This document shows, piece by piece, positions 1-36,512 of a stretch of 64,000 nucleotides of DNA; the stretch's first letter is position 1; each line of letters starts with the position of its first letter. Origin of the DNA: Thioalkalivibrio sp. AKL19 (lineage in GTDB: Bacteria > Pseudomonadota > Gammaproteobacteria > Ectothiorhodospirales > Ectothiorhodospiraceae); contig NZ_ATUK01000014.1 in the NCBI RefSeq assembly GCF_000420165.1, positions 206,001 through 270,000 on the forward strand, given 5' to 3'. Position numbers and translations under genes: made by a program. The notes beneath the pieces are model-generated. The model was not told where the DNA came from. It saw only the letters and a program-made list of their open reading frames with translations, and did no database searches.

Positions 1-77
1 AGCGGATGGGCAAGCCGGTCCTGCACCTGGAGGACGGGCGCGTCGAAGCGCGGGCGGCCGGCGAGGGCACGGCATGA
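1..77 (+). CDS. ftsE: FtsE, C-terminal end (partial)
   Basis: The window opens inside a gene whose last 24 codons read RMGKPVLHLEDGRVEAR and on to a TGA at 75-77. This is the usual tail of FtsE, the ATPase of the FtsEX cell-division complex, which controls septal peptidoglycan hydrolysis. The stop overlaps the ftsX ATG in an ATGA junction, the normal ftsE-ftsX coupling. The ATPase motifs lie outside the window, so the call rests on position and the tail. Confidence 0.75.
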   Translation, partial: RMGKPVLHLEDGRVEARAAGEGTA

Positions 78-1003
78 AGCCCGCGCGGCGCATGCTGGAT
101 GTCGTCCCGGCCTGGCTGGAGGCCCACCGGGATGCCGGCCGGCGCAGCCTCCAGCGGCGCATGCAGGCCCCGGTCCTGAGCCTGATCAGCATCGCCGTGC
201 TGGGCTTTATCCTCGCCCTGCCGGCCTACCTCTGGGTCCTGCTGGACAACGCCCGCGCCCTGTCCGCCCACGTGGACCACGACCCGCGCATCGCCCTCTA
301 CCTCGACGGCGTGGAGGCGGCCACGGTTGCGGATCTGGAACGCCACCTGGAGACCGATGCGCGGGTGGAACGCTGGACCTGGATCGATGCGGATGACGCC
401 CTGGCCACCTACCGCGAGGGAATGAGCGATCCGGGCCTGCTGGACTGGCTGGACGAGAACCCGCTGCCGGACGTGGTCGACGTCGTGCCCGCCACGGCCG
501 ACCCGGACACGGTGGCGGCGCTGCGCGAGGCGCTCGCGGCGACCGCCCCGGACGCGACCGTAGTCAGCGACGACGAGTGGGTCCGCCAACTGAACAGCCT
601 GCATCAACTGGGGCTGCGCATCCTGGCGGTGGTCGGCGCGTTGCTGGGCCTGGGAGCACTGCTGATCCTGGCCCTGGCGACCGCCTCGGAGCTGCGCGAG
701 CGCCGGGAGGAAATCGCGATCTCGCGCATCAGCGGGGCCACCCACCGTTTCCTGCGCCGGCCTTCCCTCTACGGGGGCCTGATCACCGGCCTTGGCGGCG
801 GGATCTTCGCCGGCATCCTGCTGCTGATCGGGATCGGGCTGAGCCGGGCGCCCCTGGAACAGGCCGCCGCGGCCTTCGATCTCGAATTCGCGCTCGGACT
901 CCCCGGGGCCAGCCACCTCCTGACCCTGCTGCTGGCCGGGCTCCTCCTTGGCTGGCTGGGGGCGCGGCTGGGCAGCGGCCATGCCCTGCGCGATGCGCCG
1001 TAA
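74..1003 (+). CDS. ftsX: Cell division protein FtsX
   Basis: FtsX is the inner-membrane partner of FtsE; its periplasmic loop activates peptidoglycan amidase regulators at the septum. The 309-residue product has a cytoplasmic N-terminus, a membrane segment near 33-57, a large periplasmic domain to about 175, and three more membrane segments near 177-200, 228-252 and 276-298, which is the FtsX four-helix plan. The SELRERREEIAISRISGAT stretch after helix 2 is the typical cytoplasmic coupling loop. The start is fixed by the ATGA overlap with ftsE, and rpoH follows, as in many gammaproteobacteria. Confidence 0.93.
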   Translation: MKPARRMLDVVPAWLEAHRDAGRRSLQRRMQAPVLSLISIAVLGFILALPAYLWVLLDNARALSAHVDHDPRIALYLDGVEAATVADLERHLETDARVERWTWIDADDALATYREGMSDPGLLDWLDENPLPDVVDVVPATADPDTVAALREALAATAPDATVVSDDEWVRQLNSLHQLGLRILAVVGALLGLGALLILALATASELRERREEIAISRISGATHRFLRRPSLYGGLITGLGGGIFAGILLLIGIGLSRAPLEQAAAAFDLEFALGLPGASHLLTLLLAGLLLGWLGARLGSGHALRDAP

Positions 1004-1045
1004 GGAGGCTCGGGCTGGCAAAAACGGCCGGAACTTTTGCAGGGT

Positions 1046-1072
1046 TTAGCACTCTTATCCACAGACTGCTAA
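1046..1072 (+). promoter_or_regulatory. CIRCE element (HrcA operator) upstream of rpoH
   Basis: The sequence is TTAGCACTC, nine bases, then GACTGCTAA. The CIRCE consensus is TTAGCACTC-N9-GAGTGCTAA, so 17 of 18 arm positions match with the exact spacer. It lies 33 bases before the preferred rpoH ATG, in the gap after ftsX. CIRCE is bound by the heat-sensitive repressor HrcA, so rpoH transcription is probably repressed by HrcA at normal temperature. No hrcA gene is in the window. Confidence 0.85.
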
Positions 1073-1105
1073 TCTAGAGTAATGAACCCGGAGGTATCAC
1101 CACGC

Positions 1106-1969
1106 ATGACCCAAGCCCTGACCACCCCGCGCATCGACATGCCCGTACCGGTGGGCGACCTCGATCACTACATGCAGGCCGTTGGCCGCATCGAGGTACT
1201 GGACGTCGAACAGGAACGCGAACTGGCCGTGGCGCTGCACGAGCGCCAGGACCTGGACGCCGCGCGCCAGCTGATCCTGCATAACCTGCGCTTCGTGATC
1301 CACGTCGCGCGCGGCTACCAGGGTTATGGCCTGCCGCTGGGTGACCTGATCCAGGAGGGCAACGTGGGCCTGATGAAGGCCGTGCGCCGCTTTGATCCGA
1401 ATCAGGGCGTGCGCCTGGTGTCCTTCGCGGTGCACTGGATCCGCGCCGAGATCCACGAATTCATCCTGCGCAACTGGCGCATCGTGAAGGTCGCGACCAC
1501 GAAGGCCCAGCGCAAGCTGTTCTTCAACCTGCGCAGCGCCAAACAGCGCCTGGGCTGGCTGTCGAACGCCGAGGTCTCCGCCGTCGCGCAGGACCTGGGT
1601 GTCTCGGAGAAGGACGTCTGGGAGATGGAACGTCGCCTGTCGAGCCAGGATGCGAGCTTCGACCCGGGCCCGGAGGCCGACGACGAGGGCTACCAGTCCC
1701 CGTCCGAGCGCCTGAGCCTGGAGGACCTGAGTGACGACCCGGCGCACGTGACCGAGGACGAGGACTGGGACCGCCACTACCAGGAACGCCTGAGCCAGAC
1801 CCTGGGCGAACTCGACGAGCGCGCCCGCACCATCCTGATGCGCCGCTACATGGCGGACCAGAAGGCCACGCTGCACGAGCTGGCCGCGGAATACGGCGTC
1901 TCGGCCGAACGGATCCGCCAGATCGAGAACAACGCGATCAAACGCATCCGGGCAGCCTTCGACGACTGA
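1106..1969 (+). CDS. rpoH: RNA polymerase sigma-32 factor RpoH
   Basis: This is the heat-shock sigma factor. From the chosen ATG the product has 287 residues. Region 2.2 reads DLIQEGNVGLMKAV (about 80-93), and the diagnostic RpoH box QRKLFFNLR is at 135-143. Region 4 ends in a helix-turn-helix with SAERIRQIENNAIKRIR. The ATG at 1106 is preferred because GGAGG lies 11 bases upstream; an in-frame ATG at 1082 has no ribosome site and lies close to the CIRCE element. ftsX is directly upstream and a strong hairpin terminator follows. Confidence 0.96.
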   Translation: MTQALTTPRIDMPVPVGDLDHYMQAVGRIEVLDVEQERELAVALHERQDLDAARQLILHNLRFVIHVARGYQGYGLPLGDLIQEGNVGLMKAVRRFDPNQGVRLVSFAVHWIRAEIHEFILRNWRIVKVATTKAQRKLFFNLRSAKQRLGWLSNAEVSAVAQDLGVSEKDVWEMERRLSSQDASFDPGPEADDEGYQSPSERLSLEDLSDDPAHVTEDEDWDRHYQERLSQTLGELDERARTILMRRYMADQKATLHELAAEYGVSAERIRQIENNAIKRIRAAFDD

Positions 1970-36347: not shown

Positions 36348-36512
36348 TCAGGGGCGCTTGGGTGTCTGGTACTCGGCCTCTTTCTGGAAGGGTTCCCAGA
36401 TGGTCTCGTAGCCGACAAAGCCCTTTTCGTTCGGCTTCATCTGCCGGGTTATCAGAAAGCGTGACTTGCCGTCCGGAACTTCCGGGTGCTTCTTGTCGGA
36501 TTGCTGACTCAT
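36348..36512 (-). CDS. 54-residue protein at the end of the apr operon
   Basis: A short gene with GAGGTG 8 bases before its ATG. The product is hydrophilic and basic: MSQQSDKKHPEVPDGKSRFL, then a middle block with ITRQMKPNEKGFVGYETIWE and a Pro/Lys-rich end. No membrane helix or Cys. It lies 93 bases downstream of the FKBP gene on the same strand, the last frame before the terminator at 36251-36282. Family not recognised; co-transcription with aprMBA is inferred. Confidence 0.65.
   Translation of the reverse strand: MSQQSDKKHPEVPDGKSRFLITRQMKPNEKGFVGYETIWEPFQKEAEYQTPKRP

Follow-up and report, generated by a model that had tools for sequence, protein, structure and literature searches.

The region studied here lies between an ftsX-like gene and rpoH, the gene for sigma-32, in Thioalkalivibrio sp. 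AKL19. The window, i.e., the whole stretch of DNA that was analyzed, spans 64,000 nucleotides (64 kb), and the features around rpoH are collected in Table 1. The identity of rpoH was supported by a TIGR02392 score of 384 bits (cut-off 323), and the encoded protein was 99% and 92% identical to its two best named matches, both from Thioalkalivibrio. Translation most likely starts at the ATG at 1106, which is preceded by GGAGG; a second in-frame ATG was found at 1082. The 5' neighbor matched TIGR00439 best, with a score of 206 bits that did not reach the cut-off of 255, and in E. coli (NC_000913.3) ftsX is likewise found 5' of rpoH. Directly 3' of rpoH, a GC-rich inverted repeat with a run of T after it was noticed by eye at 2010-2041, and it looks like the rpoH terminator. 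A scan of positions 900-1120 revealed no intrinsic terminators.

Table 1. Features of the rpoH locus, in coordinates of the window
Feature	Position	Strand	Basis
ftsX-like gene, 5' neighbor of rpoH	74..1003	+	TIGR00439 best match, below cut-off
GGAACTT, sigma-E-type -35	1030..1036	+	GAAC at a fixed place in genus and class
CIRCE (predicted HrcA operator)	1046..1072	+	1/18 mismatch; genus-wide conservation
CIRCE, left arm	1046-1054	+	
CIRCE, spacer	1055-1063	+	
CIRCE, right arm	1064-1072	+	
TTAGCA, possible -35	1046-1051	+	18 nt from the extended -10 candidate
TCTTA, sigma-E-type -10 (form TCNNA)	1053..1057	+	E. coli rpoH has the same spacing
TGCTAATCT, possible extended -10 of a weak housekeeping promoter	1067..1075	+	Class consensus TGCTAAAAT
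rpoH (sigma-32)	1106..1969	+	TIGR02392 and NF005143 above cut-off; GGAGG at 1090-1094

The predicted operator reads TTAGCACTC-TTATCCACA-GACTGCTAA and ends 33 bp before the likely start of rpoH. When compared with the CIRCE consensus TTAGCACTC-N9-GAGTGCTAA, 17 of the 18 arm bases matched and the spacer was exactly 9 nt, which confirms the arms, spacing and single mismatch described in an earlier note on this DNA. It was the sole match with up to three mismatches in the 64-kb window, and none was obtained in 100 dinucleotide shuffles (0/100).

The conservation of the element was surveyed in 30 genomes of the genus, 29 of which contained rpoH; G028, where it was not found, is a 58% complete genome. 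CIRCE with at most two mismatches was found before rpoH in all 29 members (no mismatch in 9, one in 16 and two in 4). Among the 28 distinct sequences, mean column identity was 1.00 and 0.94 for the two arms, 0.59 for the spacer and 0.55 for the downstream flank. The arms are thus kept while the spacer is free to vary, with 26 forms among the 29 sites. All seven other family members searched also had CIRCE before rpoH, with at most one mismatch, and a first search of 20 genomes from other families revealed it (at most two mismatches) in 14 and not in 6.

To cover the class, 143 genomes were sampled; rpoH was present in 130 and gave no match in 13. A second rpoH copy in G068 was not used, and G116 was counted by coordinates and is excluded from all counts based on 94 sites. 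CIRCE with at most three mismatches preceded rpoH in 86 of the 92 hrcA-bearing genomes, versus 9 of 38 without detected hrcA. The co-occurrence was similar at two mismatches or fewer (81/92 vs 8/38) and among genomes at least 90% complete, with completeness values entered by hand (78/84 vs 5/31). Fisher's test gave p ~ 2e-15 for the class-wide association, a value that serves only as a guide since the genomes share ancestry and p-values overstate their independence. No site with up to three mismatches appeared in 2180 shuffled rpoH upstream regions (109 regions, 20 shuffles each, base content only being kept). Two sets of genomes depart from this pattern, and both count against an operator for HrcA. 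Six genomes with hrcA had no CIRCE before rpoH, and the nine without detected hrcA kept CIRCE with up to three mismatches. Five of these nine are at least 90% complete (G163, G130, G111, G170 and G052); in these, either hrcA was missed or the site has another user. In G113 (L147), also without detected hrcA, the promoter letters described below were kept and the right CIRCE arm was one base short, possibly a relic of an operator. Among named genome records, counted regardless of hrcA and with masked bases upstream in one locus (L254) and a few short regions, CIRCE with up to three mismatches was found at 41 of 80 rpoH loci; the 39 loci lacking it included 12 from Halomonas-type genera and 7 from Pseudomonas.

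A single hrcA gene was identified in the genome itself, with PF01628 (226 bits) and PF03444 (27 bits) both above cut-off. It is followed by grpE, and the open frames beyond were named by eye as dnaK and dnaJ. The earlier note had made its proposal depend on an hrcA gene in this genome and on arms conserved in close relatives, and both were found. Across the 2.88-Mb genome, CIRCE with up to three mismatches occurred twice, before rpoH and 61 bp upstream of groES in groESL, and these two are therefore the best-scoring candidates for direct HrcA targets. No such site was found before hrcA, where only a degenerate copy with five mismatches lies 6 bp upstream of the ATG (L089 4388-4414). Among the matches listed, five genus relatives (G002, G009, G020, G021 and G024) have a three-mismatch CIRCE equally far from the hrcA domain, as if self-control of HrcA were weakening in the lineage studied here.

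Sigma-E promoters have the consensus GGAACTT, about 16 nt and TCNNA. This pattern was recognized at CIRCE: GGAACTT begins 16 nt 5' of the element, and GAACTT (1031-1036) is followed after 16 nt by TCTTA, which takes two bases from the end of the left arm and three from the start of the spacer. In the genus, 28 of 29 members have a GAAC that starts between -17 and -15 relative to CIRCE, and 23 of 29 have the sigma-E-type -10. In the class, 62 of 94 sites had GAAC between -17 and -13, with 50 exactly at -15. All 62 belonged to the 83 sites from genomes with rpoE, and the 11 from genomes lacking it had none, when rpoE was called at E <= 1e-50 (107 of 143 genomes, 97 of which pass the curated cut-off). 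Under the curated cut-off, applied by hand, three genomes (G106, G149 and G164) shift to the rpoE-negative side and the -35 is present in 61 of 80 versus 1 of 14 sites; the sole exception is G106, a 78% complete genome with a partial rpoE match. The third spacer position, which forms the last base of the -10, was A in 55 of the 62 sites with the -35, versus 12 of the 32 without it. Counter to a promoter, 21 of the 83 sites from rpoE genomes had no GAAC in place. The genome studied here encodes rpoE (TIGR02939 above cut-off), adjoined by RseA-type and RseB-type genes with RseA_N and MucB_RseB matches. In the 495 nt upstream of this rpoE, the pattern applied gave no sigma-E motif; by eye, GAACTT-N16-TCCAT was seen upstream of the gene.

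The same arrangement of promoter elements is found in E. coli, where GAACTT-N16-TCTGA, likewise of the form TCNNA, lies before rpoH and downstream of ftsX; we take this stretch to be P3. Unlike here, E. coli rpoH has no CIRCE (the best match in 261 nt has eight mismatches), and the E. coli control genome was not among the genomes with a match in the HrcA family search. In 35 class genomes without CIRCE before rpoH, GAACT-N16-18-TCNNA was found within 250 nt in 5, versus 0.375 on average in shuffled sequences. Where CIRCE is absent, the sigma-E element is therefore only sometimes there by itself.

A second, weaker housekeeping promoter may also overlap CIRCE. The possible extended -10 (TGCTAATCT) lies within and just past the right arm, after which the class consensus runs on as AAT to give TGCTAAAAT. 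A T at +29 was present in 84 of the 94 class rpoH sites and the full AAT in 40. A sigma-70 scan of 900-1120 (TTGACA, 16-18 nt, TATAAT) gave no hit at threshold, and the extended -10 in the window is therefore tentative. To compare these letters with CIRCE in general, 20 control sites were hand-picked away from rpoH among the matches listed, and the 19 with a groES start downstream were used. Palindrome and spacing in these sites and in the groESL site of the genome itself are the same as before rpoH. However, none of the 19 had GAAC at -15 or -16, one had A at the third spacer position and one had T at +29. The promoter letters thus belong to the rpoH site, which is fused to promoter elements, and not to CIRCE generally.

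Starting from the observed sequences, their conservation and their co-occurrence with hrcA and rpoE, we infer that the element at 1046-1072 is very probably a genuine HrcA operator overlapping one or more rpoH promoters, and that HrcA would repress rpoH by covering the sigma-E-type promoter. How HrcA would bind and repress, and how heat and promoter usage would come into play, may be envisaged as follows. In the unstressed cell, active HrcA on CIRCE would cover the sigma-E-type -10 of GAACTT-N16-TCTTA, and perhaps also the extended -10 of the weaker housekeeping promoter, and transcription of rpoH would be held down by this occupancy. HrcA of other bacteria needs GroEL to remain active. Once unfolded proteins occupy GroEL, HrcA would leave both of its targets, groESL and rpoH, and the release of rpoH would allow sigma-32 to raise further chaperones. 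Envelope stress would free sigma-E, and the same rpoH promoter could then fire once HrcA is off.

An HrcA operator does not in itself require a functional sigma-E promoter. The motif could be there by chance or be unused, with rpoH driven by a housekeeping promoter only, an alternative that we consider improbable. It would account for the -10 being TCTTA here versus TCTGA before E. coli rpoH, for the 32 of 94 class sites that carry CIRCE without GAAC in place, and for GGAACT-N15-17-TCNNA having a second occurrence in the 64-kb window, at 36475, besides the one at 1030. A chance motif is at odds with the fixed spacing, which placed GAAC at exactly -15 in 50 of 94 class sites, with the identical spacing of -35 and -10 before E. 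coli rpoH, and with the absence of the -35 both from the 19 groESL sites and from the 11 whose genomes lack rpoE; a housekeeping promoter as the only one is at odds with the lack of any sigma-70 match in the scan of 900-1120.

It is even less probable that the arms are conserved as promoter letters and not through HrcA binding. The nine genomes that kept the element without detected hrcA would fit such a role, as would G113, where GAACTT-N16-TCTTA and TGCTAAAAT are present next to the short right arm. However, GAG of the right arm lies outside both proposed promoter hexamers and is nevertheless kept in 84 to 92 of the 94 sites, and the palindrome is absent from 29 of 38 genomes without hrcA versus 6 of 92 with it. 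Slightly less probable still is a DnaA box in the spacer, tying rpoH to replication instead of or besides HrcA. The DnaA-box consensus is TTATNCACA, and DnaA acts on rpoH in E. coli. The spacer TTATCCACA fits this consensus exactly, and a DnaA-box-like TGTGGATAA lies on the other strand within the stretch that separates GAACTT from TCTGA upstream of rpoH in E. coli. Only two of the 29 genus members (G000 and G002) fit TTATNCACA, against the background of 26 different spacers, and a DnaA box was rejected as a conserved feature of the spacer. The least probable alternative is that the inverted repeat acts at the RNA level, as an mRNA hairpin or thermometer, which its closeness to the start codon and the thermosensor in E. 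coli rpoH mRNA would favor. Against it, the left arm would be untranscribed from a sigma-E start, and the 13 weak Rfam matches in 700-2100 all fell short of their gathering scores. The RNA of 1063-1300 was no more stably folded than its shuffles (z 0.49), which is weak evidence against a thermometer because a single stretch from a single sequence was folded.

An HrcA operator on the rpoH promoter agrees with the earlier note in making rpoH a target of HrcA and joining two heat-shock systems in a cascade. That proposal is supported; it was incomplete in that the overlap with a sigma-E-type promoter was missed. Because CIRCE is superimposed on this promoter, three systems may be joined, not two. 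Since many related bacteria share this arrangement, a single stretch of 40 bases is probably the meeting point of three stress systems.

The placement of CIRCE before rpoH, to which the note had drawn attention, is real and not new, since it was listed for Geobacter sulfurreducens in 2004, when Rodionov et al. predicted a CIRCE upstream of rpoH in that organism (PMC545781). As here, CIRCE lies upstream of the gene; in Geobacter, its arms are perfect, its position is -51 from the start, and the predicted regulon also contains groESL and the hrcA operon (PMC545781). In the available parts of that study, CIRCE before rpoH is given for one genome only and, unlike here, the account of Geobacter mentions no overlap with a sigma-E promoter (PMC545781). 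It was the only one of the sources consulted whose available text places CIRCE before rpoH, versus PMC11764788, PMC1978210, PMC8103513, PMC3989490 and PMC3224663. CIRCE before rpoH is hence already known as a prediction, and the apparent overlap with a sigma-E-type promoter is what is added here. Our literature search found no report of such an overlap or of a gammaproteobacterial spread, part of which may be contained in Permina and Gelfand (2003), reportedly a survey of heat-shock regulons in beta-, gamma- and epsilon-proteobacteria that may list some of the sites. In Xylella fastidiosa under nitrogen starvation, the available part of one expression study gives a four-fold rise of hrcA at 2 h and a two-fold rise of rpoH at 8 and 12 h (PMC3224663). 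As far as that text goes, these rises do not look like simple repression, which would count against repression of rpoH by HrcA.

RpoE was first recognized through its use of P3 of E. coli rpoH, according to the part of the source available (PMC8103513). The chances seem about even that the composite promoter of rpoH is ancient and widespread among the Gammaproteobacteria, and that in it CIRCE supplies the sigma-E -10 and parts of the housekeeping promoter, HrcA gates the output of sigma-E on sigma-32, and E. coli P3 is a remnant left after the loss of hrcA. Such gating would follow from the CIRCE palindrome itself supplying promoter elements. HrcA would report the folding state of the cytosol via GroEL, and sigma-E would report the state of the envelope. 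As E. coli has no CIRCE before rpoH and gave no HrcA match, rpoH control as known from E. coli may not hold generally, and the composite promoter offers a testable account of the origin of the E. coli promoter. If HrcA gates rpoH across the Gammaproteobacteria that carry hrcA, the repressor-based and the sigma-factor-based heat-shock systems would be one cascade. HrcA control would then extend indirectly, via sigma-32, to genes that lack a good CIRCE, among them the hrcA-grpE-dnaK operon of the genome studied here.
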